Source: Melioribacter roseus
GTDB taxonomy: Bacteria; Bacteroidota; Ignavibacteria; Ignavibacteriales; Melioribacteraceae
Assembly (NCBI GenBank): GCA_020722085.1
Contig: DYLN01000010.1
Coordinates: 16,797-50,359 of the forward strand
Direction of reading: 5' to 3'
Length of the DNA stretch: 33,563 nucleotides
The notes beneath the pieces were generated by a model. It was given only the letters and a program-made list of their open reading frames with translations, ran no database searches and had not been told where the DNA came from. Positions within the stretch are counted from its first letter, which is position 1. Each line of letters starts with the position of its first letter. Below are positions 2,860 through 15,697 of this stretch, one piece after another. The translations under genes and the position numbers were made by a program.

Positions 2860-3876
2860 CTAAATTGCAAAGAACCAAAAAAATAAAAGTGCTACACTTT
2901 CTTTTACCCTATAATTTATTGCACTTTTTTCAGTCAACTGGTGTTCGGAAGCAACAGCATCTGATTTTATGTTAAAAAAATTACAAATATCCAATACTCT
3001 GCTCAGATGGAATTTATCCGATATCAGCAATATAGATCTGGTTTTGAATCGTGGTATTAAATCTAACTTCAAATACTTTATTTGTTCAAGGGTAGTTCTT
3101 GTATCTTTCTCAAAAAATATTTTTGTAGTATCTACACCTTTTTTCTTTAAATATAAAAAAGCAGTTTCAGATTCACTTAATTCGCCAGGGGCATTTCCTC
3201 CGGTTAAAAATATTTTTTTTATCGTTCTGTTATCAAGCAGTTCTTTAGCTCTCAAAATTCTGCCTTCAAAGATAGGACTTGGTTTATCTTTGCTCCATAC
3301 CGCAGCGCCAAAAACGATACCAAAATCATACTCCTTTTTTATAGTGTTCTTTCTTTTATCTAATAATGTATAACCGTAAGCAAAAACCATTAGTAAGCTT
3401 ATTGTTACTGGTATTGCAATCAAAGGTCTTAAATAAGAAATTTTCCCGCTATCCAGAAAGGCAATCCATAACAAAAAAAGCACAAAGAAAAGCAAAAGCT
3501 GATGTACAACAAATAAAACGGCTGTAAGTACTTTTTTAATTGGAAAGTTTAGAAACGATGTATTTTTCAAAACAAAAAAGTTTTTTGTGATGAGAAAAAT
3601 AAAAATCAGAGGTATCAAAGCTGCAGCAAGTAAAATAAATAGAATCAATAATAATTTGTTGTCTATTTTTTTGTAGCGAATCTGATATGAAAAAAGACCA
3701 AGTCCAACTAAAAAAAACGTTATACAATTAAATATGTTTCCCAAAAAGTCCAGTTTAAAATCGCCGAGTGTCAGGTCATTCAAATAATATTTAATACCAA
3801 CAAGGGCAATCAAATTTACAAAGGCAAATAAAAGAACGCCAAACAGCTTACCACCATGTTTCTTTATATCTTTCAA
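2860..3876 (-). CDS. YdcF/SanA-family (DUF218) membrane protein
   Basis: This 338-residue protein has an N-terminal half of about five hydrophobic segments (residues 11-172) and then a soluble DUF218 domain (about 183-310). That domain shows DFGIVFGAAVW, FEGRILRAKEL, IFLTGGNAPGELSESE and the late SDKFHLSR segment, all typical of YdcF/ElyC/SanA proteins. Family members are linked to envelope and cell-wall precursor metabolism, but the reaction is not established. The start is TTG at 3876, supported by AGCAGGT upstream; the ATG at 3857 is out of frame. It is followed by nusB after 89 bases. Confidence 0.85.
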   Translation of the reverse strand: MKDIKKHGGKLFGVLLFAFVNLIALVGIKYYLNDLTLGDFKLDFLGNIFNCITFFLVGLGLFSYQIRYKKIDNKLLLILFILLAAALIPLIFIFLITKNFFVLKNTSFLNFPIKKVLTAVLFVVHQLLLFFVLFLLWIAFLDSGKISYLRPLIAIPVTISLLMVFAYGYTLLDKRKNTIKKEYDFGIVFGAAVWSKDKPSPIFEGRILRAKELLDNRTIKKIFLTGGNAPGELSESETAFLYLKKKGVDTTKIFFEKDTRTTLEQIKYLKLDLIPRFKTRSILLISDKFHLSRVLDICNFFNIKSDAVASEHQLTEKSAINYRVKESVALLFFWFFAI

Positions 3877-3990
3877 AGCTTTCGTACCTGCTAAGAAGTT
3901 TTTAACATTTTATAATTCCGAACAGTAAAATAGATAATTTTAAGCACTTTGTTAGAAACTTCTTCTAAGAAATGAAAGCCTATAAAGACT

Positions 3991-4016
3991 AAAAAAGCGC
4001 CTAAAGGCGCTTTTTT
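3991..4016 (-). terminator. Rho-independent terminator after tonB
   Basis: GCGCC (3997-4001) and GGCGC (4006-4010) form a stem with loop TAAA, extended by a run of A on one side and T on the other. The A/T flanks make it work in either direction. It begins two bases past the TAA stop of tonB, so it most likely ends the tonB transcript and separates it from the YdcF-family gene. Confidence 0.85.
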
Positions 4017-4017
4017 T

Positions 4018-4671
4018 TTATTGAAGCTTAAACACAATAGGTATTGAAACCTGCACCTTGACCGCCTTGCCTCTTTGCTTACCCGGTTTAAACTTTGTTT
4101 TCATAACAGCATCTACAGCAGCTTCATCGCAGCCGGCGCCAATTCCTTTAACAACTTCTGCTTTAACTACGTTTCCGTTTTCATCTACGAAAGCTTTTAC
4201 AAATACTCTGCCTTGAACGCCGGCTCTTTTTGCAATCTCCGGATAAATAATCCTCTGCTGAATAGCTTCGATTCCGCCGATCGGTTCAGGCAGTTCTTCT
4301 ACAGCGACAAAAAATACAGGTTCTTCTTCTGTCTTTTCTTCTTTGGGTGGTGGCGGAGGTGCAGCTACCTGCTGATTAACATCAAGTTCTGTAGTTCCAA
4401 TTTCTATATCCTCTAATACATCATCGGATGGTGCTTCTATTGGTATAGGCGGTTTTGGGGGTGGAGGCGGTGCACTTTCCTGTTTAGTGTGCACAATATC
4501 CTCAACATTTACCAGTTCTTGCGGTGCAACTAATTTAGCCTCACTCTTTTGGAATTTTGGGAAAAATTTAAATGCTACAATCAAGAATGCTAAAGATATA
4601 ATTAAACTTATCTCAAAAATTCTTTTGTACTTCAACTTAAGATCAAATTTTGGGTTTTTACTTAAAGCCAC
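4018..4671 (-). CDS. tonB: energy transducer TonB
   Basis: The 217-residue protein has the three-part layout of TonB: a cytoplasmic N terminus and single membrane helix (about residues 20-38), a periplasmic proline-rich linker (APPPPPKPPIP near 68 and PPPPPKEE near 106), and a C-terminal TonB domain from about 130. The latter contains YPEIAKRAGVQGRVFVKAFV and ends in the usual IPIVFKL. It couples the proton motive force, through ExbB/ExbD, to outer-membrane receptors; those partners are not in this window. The start is GTG with a strong AGGAGGT five bases upstream. It appears to be a single-gene unit with its own promoter and terminator. Confidence 0.95.
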   Translation of the reverse strand: MALSKNPKFDLKLKYKRIFEISLIISLAFLIVAFKFFPKFQKSEAKLVAPQELVNVEDIVHTKQESAPPPPPKPPIPIEAPSDDVLEDIEIGTTELDVNQQVAAPPPPPKEEKTEEEPVFFVAVEELPEPIGGIEAIQQRIIYPEIAKRAGVQGRVFVKAFVDENGNVVKAEVVKGIGAGCDEAAVDAVMKTKFKPGKQRGKAVKVQVSIPIVFKLQ

Positions 4672-4676
4672 TTTTT

Positions 4677-4683
4677 ACCTCCT
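4677..4683 (-). promoter_or_regulatory. strong Shine-Dalgarno site fixing the GTG start of tonB
   Basis: The minus strand reads AGGAGGT, five bases before GTG at 4671. It is the clearest ribosome binding site among the minus-strand genes here and settles the GTG start, since no ATG is available in frame at the N terminus. Confidence 0.8.
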
Positions 4684-4707
4684 AAAAATCACTTTCATAC
4701 GGGCATT

Positions 4708-4736
4708 AACATAAAAAATGATTTTTGTTTTGTCAA
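4708..4736 (-). promoter_or_regulatory. candidate tonB promoter
   Basis: TTGACA (4736-4731) and TATGTT (4713-4708) are separated by exactly 17 bases, a classic sigma-70 spacing. The same bases can be read as a Bacteroidota -33 TTG followed by a weak -7 TAnnTT after 20 bases. Transcription would begin near 4701, leaving a leader of about 30 bases that contains the Shine-Dalgarno site. Confidence 0.6.
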
Positions 4737-4785
4737 TGTAGTTTTTACCTTTTTTACAAATCTACGAAACTCAAGTTCCAGTTAA

Positions 4786-5223
4786 TTAGAGAGCTTCTTC
4801 TTTTGCTGTCTTAAAATTTTTAATGAACCGATAAACTAAAAGAACACCGAGAGATATGCCTAAAAAGTCCGAGGTCCAATCGAGTATATCACAATATCTG
4901 CCGGGTACAAAAAGCTGGTGTAATTCATCAACTAATGCATAGAATGACATAATGCCGATCGTATAAAATGAAGAATGTTGAGACAACTTTTCTACTTTTG
5001 ATTGAAAGTTCAGCATTAAATTAAAGAGCATAGACAATAAAAAATATGCCGCGAAGTGTTCCGCCTTGTCTTCCCAAATAAATATTTTCGGCAAAAGATT
5101 TACCGGCAGGCTTGTCCCTATAAACAAAGCAGTCCAGTAAAATACAAGCGGAAGATATATTAAAGAAACTTTTTTCTCTCTAAGTCTTCTGTACAAACGA
5201 ATCCCTAATAAACTTAATTGCAT
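4786..5223 (-). CDS. VanZ-like family membrane protein
   Basis: A 145-residue protein with four predicted membrane helices. It holds the VanZ-like signature: EDKAEHFAAYFLLSMLF in the middle, then DELHQLFVPGR and DILDWTSDFLGISLG. VanZ gives low-level teicoplanin resistance in enterococci, but most homologues, including those in Bacteroidota, have no known function. The ATG start lies 44 bases inside the upstream NAD(P)HX repair gene, so the two are probably translationally coupled. Confidence 0.87.
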   Translation of the reverse strand: MQLSLLGIRLYRRLREKKVSLIYLPLVFYWTALFIGTSLPVNLLPKIFIWEDKAEHFAAYFLLSMLFNLMLNFQSKVEKLSQHSSFYTIGIMSFYALVDELHQLFVPGRYCDILDWTSDFLGISLGVLLVYRFIKNFKTAKEEAL

Positions 5224-6754
5224 TTGGAATATTTTCCATTATATCTATTGATGTAATACCCAGTTCAGTCTTTTGTTCTAATAACAAATCTGCAGCAAGA
5301 CTATGTAAATAAACGGCCGATATTAAAGCATCTTCCTTATTATCAGATTGAGCCAAAAAACTAGCTATTGTACCAGTAAGTACATCGCCGGTTCCAAACT
5401 TTGCCATGCCAGGGTTGCCCGAAGTATTTATCAATGCTTCTCCTTCGGGTGTAAAAATAATTGTTGGTGCACCTTTTAATACTAAATAACAGCCGTATTC
5501 AGCAGCGAAAGATTTACCGATGGTAAGCTGCTCCTTATTTAATTTTTCCAAATCTATACCAAGCATATCGGCAAATTCTTTATGATGAGGAGTAAGTATG
5601 TTCCCTTTGATCATCATTTCTTTATACTTATTATTGCCGAGTGCAAAAACCGCATCAGCATCAATCACAAATGTTTTACTCTTAAAATCTGCTAAAATTT
5701 GTAAAACTGTCTCAACAGTCTCTTCTGTTCTTCCTAATCCAGGGCCAATAGCAACAACATCAGACCATTGAATTTTTTCTTTTAGCGGTTCGTAACCTTT
5801 CAAGCATAAGTATTCTTTTGAATCGTCTTCATAAGGGAAGACAATTGCACTTTCCAATTTTTCCTGTGCGAGGGTTTTAATTGAAGCAGGAAATGCAAGC
5901 AAACACGCACCGGCACCGGCTTTTAACACAGAATTCGCTGTAAAAAAAGAAGCTCCTGGCAGCAAGCCCGAGCCAGCAATTACCAAAACTTTACCAGCCG
6001 AATATTTATAATCGTCTAATTTCTTTTGCGGCAGTCCAAAATATGCATCTTCCGGCTCAATCAGATAATCGGTAACATCCAGTTCCTCAAAATATTTTTC
6101 ACCTATACCAATGCTTCCTTTTATTACTTCGCCGGAATACTTATACCCTTTCGAATAAAAAAGACCGGTTTTTAATTCTGCCAAAGTAATTGTAAGATCG
6201 GCATTAAAAATAGTTTCACCCCAGCCGTATTCCAAATCAAGACCAGTAGGAAGATCAACTGCTACTTTGTAGCAATCTAGTTCATTAATTTTATCAACGA
6301 TTGATTTATAAGGTTCGGTCAATTCTCCCCTTGAGCCTGTACCAAGCATTGCATCCAAAATCAGACTGCATTCGTTTAAGTCGGAAAGGTCTTTTACACT
6401 CTGATAGAAAATAATTTTAGAATCTTTATGAGAGGCAAGCGAATTTGTTAAGATTCTAAAATTGGTTAAGGCATCACCCTTTAACTCTTCTTCAGTCCCT
6501 AAAGAAACAACAATTACCCTAAAGCCGTTATTTAAGAAATGACGGGCGGCAGCAAAGCCGTCTCCCCCATTATTGCCCTTGCCGCAAATTATTCCAATCG
6601 TTTTAGGTTCAATATCGTTTCCTAGATTCAGCATCACATTTTCATAAATACTTCTCGCAGCATTTTCCATAAGAATAATGCTGGGCATTGCAAGAGAATT
6701 TACAGCAAAATTGTCTGCTTCTCTTATCTGGCTGGCTGAGTACAAAGGTATCAT
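5180..6754 (-). CDS. nnr: bifunctional NAD(P)H-hydrate epimerase / ADP-dependent NAD(P)H-hydrate dehydratase
   Basis: The 524-residue protein fuses two repair enzymes. Residues 1 to about 220 are the YjeF_N epimerase domain, with MENAARSIYE near 29 and the loop GKGNNGGDG at 58-66. Residues from about 230 are the ribokinase-like dehydratase domain, with AGSGLLPGASFFTANSVLKAG, GPGLGRTEETV, the DADA motif, TPHHKEFA and the anion-hole motif FGTGDVLTGTIASFLAQ. Together they convert damaged, hydrated NAD(P)H back to NAD(P)H: the epimerase interconverts R and S forms and the dehydratase dehydrates S-NAD(P)HX using ADP. Length equals that of E. coli YjeF-type fusions. The start is ATG. Confidence 0.95.
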   Translation of the reverse strand: MIPLYSASQIREADNFAVNSLAMPSIILMENAARSIYENVMLNLGNDIEPKTIGIICGKGNNGGDGFAAARHFLNNGFRVIVVSLGTEEELKGDALTNFRILTNSLASHKDSKIIFYQSVKDLSDLNECSLILDAMLGTGSRGELTEPYKSIVDKINELDCYKVAVDLPTGLDLEYGWGETIFNADLTITLAELKTGLFYSKGYKYSGEVIKGSIGIGEKYFEELDVTDYLIEPEDAYFGLPQKKLDDYKYSAGKVLVIAGSGLLPGASFFTANSVLKAGAGACLLAFPASIKTLAQEKLESAIVFPYEDDSKEYLCLKGYEPLKEKIQWSDVVAIGPGLGRTEETVETVLQILADFKSKTFVIDADAVFALGNNKYKEMMIKGNILTPHHKEFADMLGIDLEKLNKEQLTIGKSFAAEYGCYLVLKGAPTIIFTPEGEALINTSGNPGMAKFGTGDVLTGTIASFLAQSDNKEDALISAVYLHSLAADLLLEQKTELGITSIDIMENIPNAIKFIRDSFVQKT

Positions 6755-6819: not shown

Positions 6820-8253
6820 TTAGCGGATAAGTGCAGATGTGATTAGATTCAATAAAGTGTCGGGAAACAAACCAAAAATTATAACTAGGAGTCCGCTGAC
6901 AACCACAGCCGATAAGCTCAAATTATCGCTGTATATTTTTATTTCTTCCTGAGGTTCTCTAAAATACATATAAACAACTACTCTTAAATAAAAATAGACA
7001 CTAATAACACTTGAGATAACGCCAATAACTGCAAGCCACGTCAACCCGCCTTCAATGGCACCGATAAAAACATAATACTTCCCGAAGAAACCCGCCAACG
7101 GCGGTATGCCTGCAAGTGCAAACATAAATAAAGCCATAAATGCTGCAAGCACAGGGTTTCTGTTCCCAAGTCCGGCATAAGAACTTATCCCCAATTGTGT
7201 ATCGTTCTCGCCTTCAATTATTGAAACGATTCCAAACGCACCAATATTCATAAATGTATAAGCAGCTAAATAAAATATAATTCCAGATTCACTGGATATA
7301 TTGCCTGCTGCAAGCCCAATTGCCATATAACCGGCATGAGCAATCGATGAATAAGCAAGCATTCTTTTTACATTGTCCTGAGAAATTGCCACAATGCTTC
7401 CGTATAACATGGAAAGTGAGGCAATGGCAGCAAAATAAGGCGTGAATTTATTAATTGAATGAGTACTAAATATTGCAGCGAGAATAATTATAAAAACACT
7501 AAACGCTGCAGTTTTACCGGTTGTCGACATTAAACCCGTAACAGTGGTAGCAGAACCTTGATAAACATCAGGCACCCACATGTGAAACGGAAAAGCCGCA
7601 ATTTTGAAGCTAAATCCTATTAATAAGAAAATAAAGCCGGCGACAAACAACGGATTTGTAATTAATCTGTTAAAGCCTGAGATAATATCATCGATTTTTG
7701 TGGTTGCCGAAGTACCATAAATCAATGCAATTCCGTAGATAACAAATCCAGTAGCAAAAGCACCGAGCAGGAAATATTTCATAGATGCTTCATTTGCCGA
7801 GAATTTCTTGCGGTTTATTCCTGCAAGTACATAAAAACAAATCGACATCAATTCCAATCCCATAAAAATCATTATAATATCTTTTGCGCCAGACATCATC
7901 ATCATTCCCAGCACCGATGACTGAACGAGTATATAATATTCGCCGTAATATGTGCCATACTTTTTAATGTAATCAACAGAATTAAGAACAACCAATGCAG
8001 CCCCGACATTAAAAATGAAATTAAAGATAGCTGCTTTTCCGCCGGCTGCTATCATTCCGCCGAATAAAACACTTTCCTGTTGAATACCGGCAATAGAAAT
8101 TACTGCACTAACAGCAAAGATTAAAATTGAAAACCACGGCAGAATTAATTCGCTTTTTTTGATGCTCATTTCAACAGCTATGGAAAGAAGAATCCCTGCT
8201 CCAATAATTATAAACGGCATCATTTGAAATATTTCGGTTGAATTTTGGTACAT
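6820..8253 (-). CDS. nuoN: NADH-quinone oxidoreductase subunit N
   Basis: The 477-residue protein with about 14 membrane helices is one of the three antiporter-like subunits of complex I. Motifs include MGLELMSICFYVLAG (conserved glutamate in helix 5), FSFKIAAFPFHMWVPDVYQG (helix 7 lysine and the broken-helix region), MLAYSSIAHAGY and FALAGIPPLAGFFGKYYVF, all characteristic of NuoN. It translocates protons across the cytoplasmic membrane as part of the membrane arm. It ends the nuo operon and is separated from nuoM by the antiporter gene and an unrecognised gene. The ATG start is two bases after the stop of that gene. Confidence 0.97.
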   Translation of the reverse strand: MYQNSTEIFQMMPFIIIGAGILLSIAVEMSIKKSELILPWFSILIFAVSAVISIAGIQQESVLFGGMIAAGGKAAIFNFIFNVGAALVVLNSVDYIKKYGTYYGEYYILVQSSVLGMMMMSGAKDIIMIFMGLELMSICFYVLAGINRKKFSANEASMKYFLLGAFATGFVIYGIALIYGTSATTKIDDIISGFNRLITNPLFVAGFIFLLIGFSFKIAAFPFHMWVPDVYQGSATTVTGLMSTTGKTAAFSVFIIILAAIFSTHSINKFTPYFAAIASLSMLYGSIVAISQDNVKRMLAYSSIAHAGYMAIGLAAGNISSESGIIFYLAAYTFMNIGAFGIVSIIEGENDTQLGISSYAGLGNRNPVLAAFMALFMFALAGIPPLAGFFGKYYVFIGAIEGGLTWLAVIGVISSVISVYFYLRVVVYMYFREPQEEIKIYSDNLSLSAVVVSGLLVIIFGLFPDTLLNLITSALIR

Positions 8254-8255
8254 AA

Positions 8256-8621
8256 TTATTCTATAAATAAAATGTTATCGTCTGTTTCTTCAATTGTTAA
8301 TTTGTGATTCTCTCTTAAGTGCAATGCAAGTCTTCTGTGATTTTTAAAATCAAACAAATCATCTCCTATTTCTACAACAACCAATTTAATTGTTTCGTAC
8401 TTTGATACGGCTTCTTTCAAATCTTTATAATCATGGAAATAAATCTCAGTAAAATTTTCGCGGACAGAATAACCCGCACCTTCTTTCTTTTCGCTGAAAT
8501 CCATAATGATTTCATCTTCGATGACTGCTTTCAAAATTTCTGCGGCAAACGGAAGTAAGACTCTATTTCCGTAATAAAGTCCGTCAATTTTATTTTTTAA
8601 TACATCGTTCAATTTTCTCAT
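8256..8621 (-). CDS. hypothetical protein inside the nuo operon
   Basis: A 121-residue soluble protein that I do not recognise. It is acidic overall with no membrane segment, signal peptide or cysteine cluster. It mixes predicted helices (LLPFAAEILKAVIEDE near residues 22-37, and YKDLKEAVSKYETIK) with strands (IKLVVVEIGDD, NILFIE). There is no clear catalytic motif. Its genuineness is supported by tight packing: 11 bases from the antiporter gene upstream and 2 bases before nuoN, with an ATG start. The position suggests a role tied to complex I or the antiporter, for example in assembly or regulation, but that is a guess. Confidence 0.75.
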   Translation of the reverse strand: MRKLNDVLKNKIDGLYYGNRVLLPFAAEILKAVIEDEIIMDFSEKKEGAGYSVRENFTEIYFHDYKDLKEAVSKYETIKLVVVEIGDDLFDFKNHRRLALHLRENHKLTIEETDDNILFIE

Positions 8622-8632
8622 AAATCATCTCT

Positions 8633-10015
8633 CTAATAAAAGAGATACCATATTATTGCAAAAACAGGCAGCAGAATGGGAATTGAATATTTCACTAAAT
8701 AACCGAAGAAACTCGGCATTGTAATTCCTGCACGTTCACAAATAGATTTAACCATAAAATTCGGTCCGTTGCCTATGTATGTCATAGCTCCAAAGAAAAC
8801 CGCAGCAACAGAGATTGACTGCAGATAAACGGGGTACAACTGCTGAAACTGAAGAACTTGACTTTTTATATTAACATCAAAACCATACTTACCGAGCTCC
8901 GCGCTAAGGAAGTTCAGATAAGTCGGTGCATTATCTAAAAATGCAGAAAGTGTTCCAGTTGCCCAGTAAAATGTTCCGGGATTTAATTTATCGCCTAAGA
9001 CTTTTGATTCGTGCGCAATTAGCTGAAGCGCAGGAATCATAGTAGCAAAAATTCCTATAAATAAATAAGCAACCTCTTTAATCGGTTCAAAGTCAAACTC
9101 ATTTGCTCTCAAAATTTTCTGATCTGCATTTTTATATGATAAGTAAACTGTTGAGAACATTATAATTTCACGCAGGCCAACCGGCAAAGGCAAAAGACTC
9201 GGCACCCAGCTAAAGATTCCCGGGTCAACAAAAACCGAGATAAGTATTATCAATAAATAAAGAACGTTTTTAATCCCCTTAAATTCAATTTTACCGGAAT
9301 ACTCAGTGCTTTTGTCGTCCGGGGATTGGTTCCTCATATCAATCAAATAAAAAATTAATAAAACTAAAAGAACTGTCGGTAGCCAGATATACCACATATG
9401 CTGAATAAACCAGAAAAATTCTATGCCCCGTAAAAAACCAAGAAACAACGGCGGATCACCGATTGGAGTTAGTGCTCCGCCGATATTGCTTACAATAAAA
9501 ATAAAGAATATTACATGATACGCTTTGATTCTGTCTTTATTAACTTTTATAAAAGGACGAATCAAAAGAATCGATGCACCGGTTGTACCGATTAAATTAG
9601 CTGCAACAGCACCTATGAATAACATGATAACATTCAAAAGTGGAGTTGATTTTCTATCGACTTTAATCAATATACCACCTGAAGCAACAAACAGTGAGGA
9701 AAGCAGTGCAATAAATGAAAGATACTCGGTCAAAGTATGCAGCAGACTATGAGTGTCGTTAAGAAATATTAAATAATACACAACTGTTATTGAGCCTAAA
9801 AAAACTGCAACTTTAGGATAATGCTTTTCCCAGAAGTGGTGGTAGAATAACGGACCTGTGGCAATCATTAATAAAAGAACAATAAACGGAAGCACCATAA
9901 AAGTTTCCGGCAGTGTACTTTCCGGCTCCGCAGCAATACCATTAGAAGCAAAGACAAATTCACAACTTACAATTACAAAAATGGCAATATGTTTTACTTT
10001 GTCTAATAAATTCAT
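8633..10015 (-). CDS. Na+/H+ antiporter, CitMHS/NhaD-like (ion transporter superfamily)
   Basis: A 460-residue protein with about eleven or twelve membrane helices. The N-terminal 30 residues form a hydrophobic signal-like segment. Two conserved stretches identify it: GTTGASILLIRPF (residues 143-155) and SNIGGALTPIGDPPLFLGFL (176-195), typical of the NhaD/CitMHS_2 group annotated as sodium:proton antiporters. A related motif near the C terminus, GAMTYIGNGPNFMVKSI, is the second inverted-repeat substrate loop. It would exchange Na+ for H+ across the cytoplasmic membrane. It is placed 6 bases after nuoM, inside the nuo operon, which is unusual. Anion or citrate transport is a less likely alternative that sequence alone cannot exclude. 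Confidence 0.88.
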   Translation of the reverse strand: MNLLDKVKHIAIFVIVSCEFVFASNGIAAEPESTLPETFMVLPFIVLLLMIATGPLFYHHFWEKHYPKVAVFLGSITVVYYLIFLNDTHSLLHTLTEYLSFIALLSSLFVASGGILIKVDRKSTPLLNVIMLFIGAVAANLIGTTGASILLIRPFIKVNKDRIKAYHVIFFIFIVSNIGGALTPIGDPPLFLGFLRGIEFFWFIQHMWYIWLPTVLLVLLIFYLIDMRNQSPDDKSTEYSGKIEFKGIKNVLYLLIILISVFVDPGIFSWVPSLLPLPVGLREIIMFSTVYLSYKNADQKILRANEFDFEPIKEVAYLFIGIFATMIPALQLIAHESKVLGDKLNPGTFYWATGTLSAFLDNAPTYLNFLSAELGKYGFDVNIKSQVLQFQQLYPVYLQSISVAAVFFGAMTYIGNGPNFMVKSICERAGITMPSFFGYLVKYSIPILLPVFAIIWYLFY

Positions 10016-10021
10016 CAGAAA

Positions 10022-11548
10022 TTATTTTACTAAACTCAATGTAAACGAGCCAACACTCCTTAAAATTTTTTCGGTAGATAATCTAGTCATATCGAGAAAT
10101 GTACTGGGGTAAATGCCGATCCAAACAATAAAAATCAAAATCGGAACAATAACTATAAGCTCTCTTGCAGTCATATCTGTCAATTTATTTTGCAGTTCCG
10201 GATTTTTTACAGTACCAAACACAACACGCTGATACATCCATAATAAATAAACAGCGGCAAATATTACTCCCGAAGCTGCAAAAACTGTAAACCACCAGCT
10301 ATTAAGCACAGAGGATTTGAAGGAACCGAGTAAGATTAAAAATTCACCTATAAACCCGTTCAAACCGGGCAGGCCAATAGACGAAAGAGAAGTAATCATA
10401 AGAACAGCACAATAAACAGGAATTAATTTTGCTATTCCGCCGTAATATGCAATTTCTCTTGAATGGGTTCTTTCGTAAATGACACCAACTAAAAGGAATA
10501 AAGCGCCTGTAGATAAACCATGATTTATCATTTGAATTACGGCACCCTGTACTGCTTCTTCCGTCATTGCAAAAATTCCAAGCACAACAAATCCAAGATG
10601 TGCAACCGAAGAGTATGCCACAAGCTTTTTCATATCGGGTTGAACCATCGCAACCAAAGCGCCGTAGATAATACCAACAATTGCGAGCATAGAGATAAAG
10701 GGTGCGTAATAAACAGCAGATTGCGGAAAAAGCGGCAGACAAAATCGTAAAATTCCGTACGTACCCATCTTCAACAAAACTCCCGCTAATATTACAGAAC
10801 CTGCTGTCGGAGCTTGAACGTGTGCATCCGGCAGCCATGTATGCAGAGGAAATATAGGGACCTTTATAGCAAAGCTCAGCAGAAACGCAAAAAACATCCA
10901 GCTTTGAATTTCACGCGGGACGGAAGGACCTACTTTGTATAAGTCAAGTAAGTTTGTCGTAAACGAGCCAAGAGGACCGGAAGCATAAACAGCAAGCCAG
11001 ATTATTGCAACAAGCATCAACAAACTTCCAAACATGGTGTAAATAAAAAATTTCACGGACGCATAAATTCTCTGTTCACCACCCCAAATTCCAATGATAA
11101 AATACATCGGAATGAGCATTGCTTCCCAAAAAATATAAAACAGGAACATATCAAGAGACATAAACACGCCGATCATTCCAGTTTCCAAGAACAACATCAT
11201 AAAGGTGAACATTTTCACTTTTTTTTCAATAGCCTTCCAGCTTGAAAGCAAAGTCAAAGGAGTAAGAAAAGTGGTAAGTAAAATCAAAAGGAGCGATATG
11301 CCGTCTACACCGACAAAGTAGCTGACATTTAGACTTTTGATCCAGAGTATTTTATCCTGAAACTGAAAATCGGCTGCCGAAGCATCAAAACCAAAATAAA
11401 CAAAAAGTGAAATAATGAAAGCCGCAATCGAAATCAAGAAACCGAGCCACCGTATTAGTTTGGGATTTTCTTCTTTAAGAAAAAGAATCAGCAAGCTGCC
11501 CGCAATTGGCGTTAGAAGCAAATATGTCAATAAATGATTTTGTTCCAT
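10022..11548 (-). CDS. nuoM: NADH-quinone oxidoreductase subunit M
   Basis: A protein of 508 residues and about 14 helices, an antiporter-like subunit of the complex I membrane arm. Motifs: FYIFWEAMLIPMYFIIGIWGG split across the helix 5 glutamate, FAIKVPIFPLHTWLPDAH with the helix 7 lysine, YSSVAHLGFVVLGIF, and IGLPGLNGFIGEFLIL, the NuoM form of the helix 12 region. I chose ATG at 11548, four bases after the nuoL stop. A TTG at 11563 would add five residues and overlap nuoL. The gene continues into the antiporter gene. Confidence 0.97.
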   Translation of the reverse strand: MEQNHLLTYLLLTPIAGSLLILFLKEENPKLIRWLGFLISIAAFIISLFVYFGFDASAADFQFQDKILWIKSLNVSYFVGVDGISLLLILLTTFLTPLTLLSSWKAIEKKVKMFTFMMLFLETGMIGVFMSLDMFLFYIFWEAMLIPMYFIIGIWGGEQRIYASVKFFIYTMFGSLLMLVAIIWLAVYASGPLGSFTTNLLDLYKVGPSVPREIQSWMFFAFLLSFAIKVPIFPLHTWLPDAHVQAPTAGSVILAGVLLKMGTYGILRFCLPLFPQSAVYYAPFISMLAIVGIIYGALVAMVQPDMKKLVAYSSVAHLGFVVLGIFAMTEEAVQGAVIQMINHGLSTGALFLLVGVIYERTHSREIAYYGGIAKLIPVYCAVLMITSLSSIGLPGLNGFIGEFLILLGSFKSSVLNSWWFTVFAASGVIFAAVYLLWMYQRVVFGTVKNPELQNKLTDMTARELIVIVPILIFIVWIGIYPSTFLDMTRLSTEKILRSVGSFTLSLVK

Positions 11549-11552
11549 AATT

Positions 11553-13532
11553 TTATATACCAAGAATTAACCATAATAAAACGGCAGCTATTCCGACCAT
11601 CATTATCACAGCATAAAATTGAGCAACTCCGGTCTGCATTTTTCTTATAGTACCGGAAATTTTATCTATTAATTTAGCCGCACCGTTAACAATTCCGTCT
11701 ATTATAAATGTATCTGTAAACTTCCAGAGAATTTTTTCGGCTCCTTTTTGAATGGGCTGGACAACTGCTGCTTCGTAAAACTCATCCACATAATACTTGT
11801 TAAATAAAAGGGTGTAAATTCCTTTGAATTTCTTTGCCATTGTACCGGCAATGTCAGGTTTTTTAGTATAGATATAATAAGCTGCGTAAATTCCAGCCAA
11901 TGCAACTGCAACTGAAATTGTCATTAATAAAATTTCTTGTGCATGTGTGTACATACCGGTGTATGCCAGCTTCTCTTCGGCGGGTTTAAAGATCGGTTCA
12001 AGCCAAGATTCAAAGTTGTTTCCGCCTTCACCTGAAAATAAAGCAGGTATACCGATGAAGCCCCCGATCACAGAAAGAATGCCGAGTATAATTAAAGGAA
12101 CAGTCATAACTTTTGGAGATTCGTGAGGGTGTGGCACATTTTCAAACTCCCCCCTTCCTTCGGAAGCATGCTGCTGAGTATGCTTGAATCTTTCTTCACC
12201 GTAGAAAGTTAGCGAAACAAGACGAAACATATAGAAGGCAGTTAATAAAGCTGTAAAGACGCCAATAAACCAGAATATAAAATTCCCGTTGCTGAAGGCG
12301 TACCACAAAATTTCATCTTTGCTGAAAAAGCCGGAAAATCCCGGGAAGCCGGAAATTGCAAGTGCAGCGGTTAAAAATGTTAAATAAGTAACAGGCATAT
12401 ATTTTTTCAGACCGCCGTAATTTTGAATGTCCTGCTGCTCATGCATTGCATGAATAACCGAACCAGCACCAAGGAATAAAAGTGCTTTAAAGAATGCATG
12501 CGTCATAACATGAAAAATTGAAGCTGAAAAAGCTCCGACACCTGCTGCAAGAAACATATATCCAAGCTGGCTGATAGTTGAGTAAGCCAGAACTTTTTTA
12601 ATATCGTTTTGAACAAGTCCCATTGTAGCAGCAAATAACGCAGTTAAAAGCCCAATAATTGCAACTATTGTCATTACCGCTGGAGCAGAAGCAAAAATAA
12701 TTGACGCCCGTGAAACCATATAAACACCGGCTGTAACCATTGTAGCTGCATGAATCAAAGCCGAGACCGGAGTTGGACCTGCCATTGCATCGGGCAGCCA
12801 GACATAAAGCGGTATTTGTGCAGACTTGCCGGTTGCCCCGATAAACAAGAAAATTGCAATCAAGCTGAAAGTAGTTTCAGAAACAGGAAAGTGCTGCACT
12901 TTGGAAAAAACTTCGCTGAAATTAAGGCTATCGAATGTAGAATAAATCAAAAACATCCCCAGCAAAAAACCAAAGTCACCGATTCGATTTACAATAAACG
13001 CTTTTTTTGCAGCCTGGGCAACTGTTCCTTTTTCAAATCTTTTATCATACCAGAACCCGATAAGTAAATAAGAACAAAGACCTACACCTTCCCATCCTAA
13101 AAACAAGACTAAAAAATTATCTCCAAGCACTAAGTTCATCATTGTGAAAATGAACAGATTGAGGTACGAGAAAAATCTCCAGTATCCTTTATCACCGTGC
13201 ATATATCCGATTGAATAAACATGGATTAAAAATCCAACGCCAGTAACAATCAACGACATCACAAGAGAAAGCTGATCAACGAGATAGCCAAACTTAATGT
13301 TCAGTCCGGCTACATTCAGCCATGTAAAAAGTTCTACAGTATTGCTCCTCTGTTCAACAGGCAGGCCGAGAGTTTGAAAAAAAGCGCCAAGTGAAACAAG
13401 AAATGCTAATCCAACAGCGGCGCTGCCAATAATTCCAATAACTTTTTCATTCTTAATTTTTGAACCGAACAAACCGTTAATCAAAAACCCGATTAGAGGT
13501 AAAAGAATTGTTAAATAAATAAAATTAATCAT
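11553..13532 (-). CDS. nuoL: NADH-quinone oxidoreductase subunit L
   Basis: The 659-residue protein is the largest antiporter-like subunit. The core has GWEGVGLCSYLLIGFW (helix 5 glutamate), GATGKSAQIPLYVWLPDAM (helix 7 lysine), PTPVSALIHAATMVTAGVY, YSTISQLGYMFLAAGVG and SGFPGFSGFFSKDEIL. The last 130 residues, from about KFKGIYTLLFNKYYVDEFYE, are the C-terminal extension that forms the long lateral helix along the membrane arm and its anchor. It pumps protons as part of complex I. It begins with ATG, 7 bases after nuoK. Confidence 0.98.
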   Translation of the reverse strand: MINFIYLTILLPLIGFLINGLFGSKIKNEKVIGIIGSAAVGLAFLVSLGAFFQTLGLPVEQRSNTVELFTWLNVAGLNIKFGYLVDQLSLVMSLIVTGVGFLIHVYSIGYMHGDKGYWRFFSYLNLFIFTMMNLVLGDNFLVLFLGWEGVGLCSYLLIGFWYDKRFEKGTVAQAAKKAFIVNRIGDFGFLLGMFLIYSTFDSLNFSEVFSKVQHFPVSETTFSLIAIFLFIGATGKSAQIPLYVWLPDAMAGPTPVSALIHAATMVTAGVYMVSRASIIFASAPAVMTIVAIIGLLTALFAATMGLVQNDIKKVLAYSTISQLGYMFLAAGVGAFSASIFHVMTHAFFKALLFLGAGSVIHAMHEQQDIQNYGGLKKYMPVTYLTFLTAALAISGFPGFSGFFSKDEILWYAFSNGNFIFWFIGVFTALLTAFYMFRLVSLTFYGEERFKHTQQHASEGRGEFENVPHPHESPKVMTVPLIILGILSVIGGFIGIPALFSGEGGNNFESWLEPIFKPAEEKLAYTGMYTHAQEILLMTISVAVALAGIYAAYYIYTKKPDIAGTMAKKFKGIYTLLFNKYYVDEFYEAAVVQPIQKGAEKILWKFTDTFIIDGIVNGAAKLIDKISGTIRKMQTGVAQFYAVIMMVGIAAVLLWLILGI

Positions 13533-13539
13533 TCGTTTT

Positions 13540-13848
13540 TTACCACTTGAAAATATTTATCTTATCTATATCCACTGTTAATTTATTTCGGAAAATTGCA
13601 ATAATAATTGCTAGTCCCACCGCAGCCTCCGCTGCTGCAACAGTCATAACAAAGAAAACAAAAACCTGCCCTGTTACATTTCCTAGGTAAGAAGAAAAAG
13701 TAACAAGAGTCAAGTTAGCTGAGTTTAGCATAAGTTCAATGCTCATAAAAACTACAATTGCATTTCTTCTAATTAATACACCCACAATTCCCACAGAAAA
13801 CATGAAGCCACTGAGTACAAGGTAATATTCCATCGGTATTGAAGTCAT
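13540..13848 (-). CDS. nuoK: NADH-quinone oxidoreductase subunit K
   Basis: The 102-residue protein has three membrane helices, the standard NuoK size. Signatures are [20 protein letters not shown] at the N terminus, [16 protein letters not shown] with the conserved glutamate of helix 2, and [18 protein letters not shown] with the helix 3 glutamate. Both glutamates belong to the proton path through the membrane arm. The ATG at 13848 is used; a second ATG five codons later (MEYYLVL) aligns better with many homologues and could be the true start. Confidence 0.97.
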
Positions 13849-13852
13849 TTGT

Positions 13853-14368
13853 TTACTCGAATTTCTTCTTAGCTAAAATAAGTGCACCAATTGTAGCAGC
13901 AAGCAATAAAAAGCCGGCTGCCTCGAAGGGAATAATATAATTAGTATAGAGTTCTTTCCCGATATTTTGAATAGTGCCTATTTGTGAACTTACATTTAAA
14001 TTGCCTTTAACTGCATTTGATGGTTTTGTAAAAAATATCAAATATGCAAGTTGAACAAAAACAAAAGCGCTGATTAAAAGAGCAAAAAATTTGATAAATT
14101 TTTTGTCGGTTAAAACCTTAAACTCGCTCGAAGTATTAAGCAACATTAATACAAAGAGGAAAAGTACCATAATTGCACCGGCATAGACTATCACCTGAAC
14201 AACTGCAATGAACTGAGCATTCAAAAGTAAATACAGACCTGCCAACGCAAAAAAATTAAGTATTAAAAAAATGGCACTCATAACGGGATGTGACTGTGTA
14301 ATTACCATAACTGCAGAAACAGCAGCAATCAATGCCAGCACTATGAAAAGGATTAGTTCTAAATTCAT
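13853..14368 (-). CDS. nuoJ: NADH-quinone oxidoreductase subunit J
   Basis: A protein of 171 residues and five membrane helices. The family signature [20 protein letters not shown] lies around residues 58-77; this helix contains the pi-bulge region near the quinone-proton coupling site. It is the first complex I gene of the block. nuoA to nuoI are not upstream; instead the asparaginyl-tRNA synthetase gene ends two bases before it. The start is ATG. Confidence 0.96.
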
Positions 14369-14370
14369 AA

Positions 14371-15669
14371 TTAGGGAGTATTCCTATAAATCATTCTCGG
14401 AAAAGGTATTGCTTCTCTTAAATGTTCGAGCCCGCAAATCCAGCTAACAGTTCTTTCGAGACCAAGACCAAAGCCTGAATGCGGCACCGAACCATATCTT
14501 CTTAAGTCCAAATACCACTCAAAAAAATCCTGTGGGAGATTATGCTCCTTTATTCTTGAGAGCAGTAAATTAAGATCGTCTTCTCTCTGGCTGCCGCCTA
14601 TAATTTCACCGTAACCTTCAGGAGCCAAAATATCAACAGCCAGCGCAAGTTTAGGGTTAGCCGGATCACGCTTCATATAAAATGCTTTTACTTCAGCGGG
14701 ATATCTATGAACCATTACAGGTTTGTCAAATTCTTCCGAAATCAATGTTTCATCGGTTCCGCCCAAATCATTTCCCCATTGAAAATCTACCCCTTTCTTT
14801 TTCAAAATCTCAACCGCCTCATCATAACTTATTCTGGGGAAAGGGCGTTTTACTTTTTCCAGCTTGGAAGTATCTCTCTGAAGTTCTTTTAATTCTTCAG
14901 CTCTATCTTTAAGAACGGTTTGCACTATATATTCAAGAAATTCTTCTGCAAGGTCCATATTATCGTCTAAATCATAAAAAGCCATTTCAGGTTCGACCAT
15001 CCAAAATTCGGTTAAATGCCTGCGTGTCTTGGATTTTTCTGCTCTAAAAGTAGGACCAAAAGTATAAATTTTCCCGAAAGCCATTGCGCCGGACTCACCG
15101 TATAATTGTCCTGACTGAGTCAAGTAAGCCTTGCCCAGGTCAAAATAATCCATTTCAAATAAAGTAGAAGTTCCTTCGCAGGCATTTGGTGTGATAATAG
15201 GTGGATCAAAAAGCGTGAACCCTCTTTCGTCAAAAAAATCTCTAATTGCTTTTACTATTCTATGGCGGATTTTAAGAATTGCCACCTGTCTTCTTGATCT
15301 AATCCATAGGTGGCGGTGATCGATTAAAAACTCAACTCCGTGTTCTTTTGGTGTAATAGGATATTCATTAGCAAGAGAGATTATCGACAAAGATTTTGTA
15401 TCTATTTCATAACCGCTTACAGCACGCGGTTCTTCTTTTACTGTGCCTGTAATTTCAAAAGATGACTCTTGAGTAATCTTGTCCGCGTTTTCGAAAGTTT
15501 CTTCGGATACATTGCCTTTAACAACCACACATTGAGTATAACCCGTACCGTCGCGTAGTATCAAAAATTTAATCTTTCCACTCGATCTTTTGTTGTACAA
15601 CCAGCCTTTTAATGTAACTTCTTTGCCTGTATAATTTTTAAGGTCTTTGATATAAACTGTGGGTCTCAT
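14371..15669 (-). CDS. asnS: asparagine--tRNA ligase
   Basis: A 432-residue class II synthetase. The N-terminal OB-fold binds the anticodon ([20 protein letters not shown]). The catalytic domain shows [14 protein letters not shown], the motif 2 region [20 protein letters not shown] with EPEMAF, and motif 3 [17 protein letters not shown]. The ACEG and EPEMAF forms point to asparagine rather than aspartate. It charges tRNA-Asn with asparagine. I chose ATG at 15669; a TTG at 15678 would add three residues. It heads the transcript that runs into nuoJ, with a promoter candidate at 15698-15729. Confidence 0.96.
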
Positions 15670-15697
15670 TATAGGCAATTAGTTAAAAAGTGATTTT

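Follow-up and report, generated by a model that had tools for sequence, protein, structure and literature searches.

In this bacterium, a Na+/H+ antiporter of the NhaD/NhaE type (nhaD) and a protein of 121 residues (U121) probably form a two-gene module, carried by the operon that encodes the second half of complex I. The module would be produced together with the proton pump, and U121 would be the cytosolic partner of the antiporter. This reading builds on what we observed directly: the gene order, the gene families, their conservation, the persistence of the pair in genomes without the 14-subunit complex I, and the presence of unrelated antiporters in the same slot. The window, i.e., the whole stretch of 33,563 nucleotides of Melioribacter roseus that we analysed, encodes the following genes in this order on its minus strand:

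14371-15678, minus strand: class II aminoacyl-tRNA synthetase, read as asnS (PF00152)
13853-14368, minus strand: nuoJ (PF00499)
13540-13848, minus strand: nuoK (PF00420)
11553-13532, minus strand: nuoL (TIGR01974, 799 bits)
10022-11563, minus strand: nuoM (TIGR01972, 630 bits, above the cut-off; TTG start as listed, with an ATG at 11548)
8633-10015, minus strand: antiporter of the NhaD/NhaE type (CitMHS_2), 460 residues (PF16980, E 4.5e-143)
8256-8621, minus strand: U121, 121 residues, predicted to be soluble and mostly beta, immediately downstream of nhaD; its family has no name
6820-8253, minus strand: nuoN (TIGR01770, 411 bits, above the cut-off)
5180-6754, minus strand: nnr, NAD(P)H-hydrate repair enzyme (PF01256 and PF03853)

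The gaps that separate nuoM, the antiporter, U121, and nuoN, all on the same strand, were given as 6, 11, and 2 bases in the sequence-only reading, and the coordinates of the open reading frames confirm these values. Because the gaps are so short, the four genes are likely to be co-transcribed. Promoter-like and terminator-like sites in the region show no excess over shuffled sequences, so separate transcription of the antiporter is not indicated. The asnS gene, which is 2 bases away from nuoJ (window 14368-14371), usually borders the block on its left, whether nuo genes are there or not, and provides its left-hand anchor in relatives lacking complex I; nnr is the right-hand anchor. A survey of gene order in relatives had been proposed for this arrangement, and it recurs there in 25 distinct loci, which shows that it is not due to chance.

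The antiporter matches PF16980 (CitMHS_2) over its full length (residues 38-460, 477.6 bits for a cut-off of 25.7) and also PF03600 (E 5.4e-15), with no match in NCBIfam. It has the hairpin motifs of NhaD/NhaE antiporters (NxGG..TPxGDPP, DNxPT, and GNGPN), present as the intact segments SNIGGALTPIGDPP, LDNAPT, and IGNGPN. The residues N177, D187, D361, N362, N416, and N419 are conserved across the 182 homologues examined, distant paralogues included, and the polar residues of the hairpin motifs presumably have the role attributed to their counterparts in the superfamily. The hydropathy profile reveals a hydrophobic, signal-like segment at about residues 10-28. In the antiporter and its orthologues, the region corresponding to residues 1-30 of the window protein has a signal-peptide-like hydrophobic stretch that ends in small residues and is followed by a variable linker, long and acidic or His-rich in the orthologues from the class of Rhodothermaceae. 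Sequence searches found no relative of solved structure.

The label 'NhaD-like' initially given to this protein is right at the level of the superfamily. Its nearest characterised protein is the NhaE (formerly NhaD) of Rhodothermus marinus, the prototype of the NhaE family, which gives resistance to Na+ but not to Li+ in E. coli (PMC9408914). As is predicted for the window protein, the members of this family (TC 2.A.111), from R. marinus and Neisseria meningitidis, are Na+/H+ antiporters of the IT superfamily; only the proteins of these two species are reported as tested (PMC9408914), and we made the comparison via the homologues found in the same operon slot, which are about 50-54% identical to the window antiporter. 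The likeness to the NhaD family (TC 2.A.62; Vibrio and Halomonas), which has the same kind of exchange, is set at the level of their common superfamily. The same-slot homologues and the tested R. marinus protein suggest that the window antiporter exchanges Na+ for H+. Its substrate could differ from Na+, as the Pfam name is 'putative citrate transport' and the IT superfamily includes anion transporters (PMC9408914). However, it is very unlikely that it moves citrate or another anion instead, because the R. marinus homologue confers Na+ resistance (PMC9408914) and because recognised families of Na+/H+ exchangers replace or join NhaD in the slot (see below). The window antiporter is a single-gene transporter whose family is unrelated to Mrp and to NuoL/M/N. 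Mrp, itself a Na+/H+ antiporter, has a common origin with NuoL/M/N. The genome also encodes a second CitMHS_2-like antiporter (G000:C35, L182:166-1542), about 42% identical to the first, which stands alone between genes that look by eye like those of an asparaginase and of DnaA.

The position of nhaD between nuoM and nuoN is not new. The nqoB operon of R. marinus (nqo10-14) reportedly has nhaD and pcd between nqo13 and nqo14, all of them co-transcribed. We found nuoM-nhaD-pcd-nuoN in 26 of the 29 high-scoring loci from the class of a Rhodothermaceae MAG, and the PCD was confirmed by PF01329 in two related loci. The presence of nhaD and pcd among the complex I genes of R. marinus was already reported in 2005 (Melo et al. 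2005, BBA 1709:95-103). The two operons have the same antiporter family in the same slot and on the same strand, with nuoJKLM before and nuoN after, but they belong to different bacteria—ours is of the Ignavibacteriales type—and the small gene that follows nhaD is pcd in R. marinus and the unrelated U121 in the window. U121 is the new part of the layout. The class of Rhodothermaceae also has more distant NhaD, encoded divergently beside pcd in L198, L200, L202, L204, and L205 and beside nuoL in L197, L199, L201, L203, and L206; in genomes of this class, the link between NhaD and PCD is therefore also found outside the nuo operon.

U121 represents a family that we have not seen described: it has no match in Pfam, NCBIfam, or PHROG, it has no relative of solved structure detectable by sequence, and we found no report on it in the literature searched, although one may exist. 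The models from two AlphaFold2 runs are consistent with each other and mostly beta (pLDDT 87-88, pTM 0.82); a fold search in the PDB and in a viral library gave no match at E ≤ 0.001. The protein is probably cytosolic, since its hydropathy profile lacks any hydrophobic segment. Within the order, G14, R20, P24, K31, F42, K79, and H95 are among the residues that never vary. The position between nhaD and nuoN and the similar size could suggest that U121 is a worn-down version of the PCD found in the R. marinus slot, but we regard this as extremely improbable. It lacks the HHP motif of PCD, its model does not show the PCD fold, it has no match to PF01329, and the profile comparison gives a probability of 0.2% for their relatedness. 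The mostly beta model has no PCD-like match in the PDB, the family is conserved over 121 residues with invariant positions of its own, and the genome has a separate PCD gene on another contig. The identification of U121 as a PCD was thus rejected.

We searched for both genes in 58 genomes, mostly MAGs, comprising that of the window and those of relatives from the same order or nearer. A close nhaD is present in 44 of them and U121 in 37. U121 is accompanied by a close NhaD in 36 of these 37 genomes, and in the exception a contig ends inside U121; the association between the two is significant (Fisher p 7.5e-7, not corrected for kinship). In contrast, the presence of U121 shows no dependence on complex I (Fisher p 1.0, ignoring shared ancestry), the gene being found in 13 of the 20 genomes that lack the 14-subunit enzyme, still beside nhaD. 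The antiporter itself is in 17 of these 20 genomes, against 27 of the 38 that have the enzyme (Fisher p 0.34, ignoring kinship). Neither gene is thus confined to genomes with the 14-subunit complex I, as an accessory subunit would be. Some relatives share the order of the window, nuoM-nhaD-U121-nuoN. Others have nuoM-nhaD-nuoN without U121 (L018, L028, L194, and L195) or nuoM-nuoN with nothing in between (L188-L193). In many genomes of the window's family, the order is asnS-nhaD-U121-nnr, with nuoJKLM and nuoN missing from either side of an intact pair; these genomes also lack high-scoring NuoN and NuoD, while retaining an 11-subunit complex I-like set. In the antiporter tree, the nuo-linked and unlinked states switch at least 6 times.

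A few other observations were made in these genomes. The genome of the window encodes one such 11-subunit set in a second cluster (NuoABCDHIJKLMN; G000:C32, L181:5735-16519), beside which we found no EFG genes. Clusters of this type occur in almost every relative, even where the 14-subunit enzyme is absent. In genome G054, two tandem copies of nhaD lie between nuoM and U121-nuoN (L049:661-3797). A 1,144-residue open frame of G071 that looked like a NuoM-NhaD fusion turned out to be two genes, with nuoM ending at 5028 and nhaD starting at 5058 (L148).

The pairing of U121 with NhaD extends beyond the order. A search of 395 genomes with the U121 profile retrieved distant relatives (E 1e-6 to 1e-13) in 46 genomes, all of them from a single other family of the phylum (f26), which we take to be Chlorobiaceae (green sulfur bacteria). 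Residues G14 and P24 are kept across both families. All 46 genomes have NhaD, about 50-57% identical in most of them. According to the coordinates, 38 of the 46 have U121 as the next gene downstream of nhaD, which identifies U121 as a conserved companion of the antiporter. There are no nuo neighbours in the flanks examined around this pair. The partnership is not obligate, since the two genes are apart in the other 8 genomes and some relatives of the window have nhaD without U121. The idea of U121 as a companion of complex I was rejected on account of the f26 genomes and of those lacking the 14-subunit enzyme. The gene called unknown in the sequence-only reading follows the antiporter and is tied to it, not to complex I.

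We then turned to the junction itself, using a class-level survey around a second anchor that provided 34 loci in which nuoM and nuoN were both visible. Since the loci were sampled by search rank and relatives are among them, their counts describe the sample and do not estimate frequencies. The junction is empty in 16 loci and filled in 18. Among the latter, 17 contain a Na+/H+ antiporter, 16 of them NhaD and one a PF00999 exchanger instead (L301:2392-3789), and the remaining one has an alpha/beta hydrolase (L321). Two of the 16 NhaD loci have additional antiporters: L303 adds an entire Mrp operon, and in L320 a further PF00999 exchanger is part of an added divergent cluster. The junctions between nuoJ and nuoK, nuoK and nuoL, and nuoL and nuoM are unbroken, apart from one spurious open reading frame. 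Beyond these 34 loci, L117 has NhaD with PF00999 and L128 has NhaD with Mrp. In the two MAGs with Mrp, the complete operon lies between nhaD and nuoN (L303:6141-13608 and L128:2355-9768). The PF00999 exchanger of L117 comes after NhaD (3394-4851), and that of L320 (4473-5738) is on the opposite strand, with a universal stress protein. We found no earlier report of Mrp or PF00999 genes in this slot, or of the junction as a hot spot, in the literature searched, which does not prove absence.

The order nuoM-nhaD-nuoN was found in Ignavibacteriales, in the class of Rhodothermaceae, and in other MAGs labelled as Bacteroidetes or Bacteroidia. In the trees, the NhaD clades largely track host groups, the nuo-linked order occurs in several of them, and the copies of Cytophagales and f26 are unlinked. 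The simplest reading of these phylogenies is that of an old linkage with repeated breaks. It could be argued that the position has no meaning and that the antiporter gene hitchhikes in the operon, from which it would merely obtain a strong promoter. The empty junctions fit such a scenario, as does the fact that nhaD works elsewhere without nuo neighbours. Yet, when this junction is occupied, it is nearly always by Na+/H+ antiporters, which come from several families, whereas the other nuo junctions are intact; this makes neutral hitchhiking unlikely. As the slot is shared by unrelated antiporters, one of which replaces NhaD, what is kept near complex I seems to be the exchange activity and not a particular protein surface. 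The shared slot therefore favours the co-expression of proton pumping and Na+ extrusion, and argues against a docked subunit.

The sequence-only reading had raised the possibility that the antiporter attaches physically to the membrane arm of complex I. In its strongest form, the antiporter would be docked beside NuoM and NuoN, with U121 as a coupling subunit, and the whole would function as a respiratory Na+ pump. The genes are indeed placed closely, between those of two antiporter-like subunits, in several lineages, and the complex I of R. marinus has been postulated to do Na+/H+ antiport (PMC5662883). Nevertheless, the pair outlasts the 14-subunit enzyme in 13 relatives and has no adjacent nuo genes in the examined stretches of f26, the slot can be occupied by a PF00999 exchanger on its own, related genomes have nothing between nuoM and nuoN, and the sole suspected fusion of NuoM with NhaD consists of two genes. 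Physical attachment is thus not supported, we give docking little credence, and we do not propose the antiporter as a complex I subunit. A looser version, in which the NhaD-U121 unit associates with complex I, perhaps transiently, and returns the exported protons through NhaD to make a respiratory Na+ pump—a purpose that PF00999, or NhaD with Mrp, would serve in relatives—seems to us hardly more than a slim chance. The proposal that the operon converts a proton gradient into a sodium gradient holds in part: many relatives have the antiporter among their complex I genes, unrelated antiporters share its slot, and co-expression is the best reading of both, but direct conversion by a single unit is not supported, given the presence of nhaD in most of the surveyed relatives without the 14-subunit complex I.

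Under the reading that we favour, that of an antiporter module made together with the proton pump, complex I would export protons and the antiporter would admit them in exchange for Na+ sent out. Such an exchange would keep cytosolic Na+ low and pH stable, and respiration would thereby charge a Na+ gradient. Should complex I also import Na+ as it pumps protons, as in the R. marinus postulate (PMC5662883), the antiporter would send this Na+ back out. U121 would most likely bind the cytosolic face of the antiporter, as a regulator or as an assembly factor.

The tie between proton pumping and sodium economy is usually studied via Na+ pumps such as NQR or Rnf. That a single junction in the complex I operon repeatedly hosts Na+/H+ antiporters of unrelated families suggests co-expression of proton pumping and Na+ exchange as a rule that can be tested. 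The nhaD-U121 pair, in turn, gives the poorly studied NhaE kind of antiporter a conserved, predicted soluble partner whose fold has no match.
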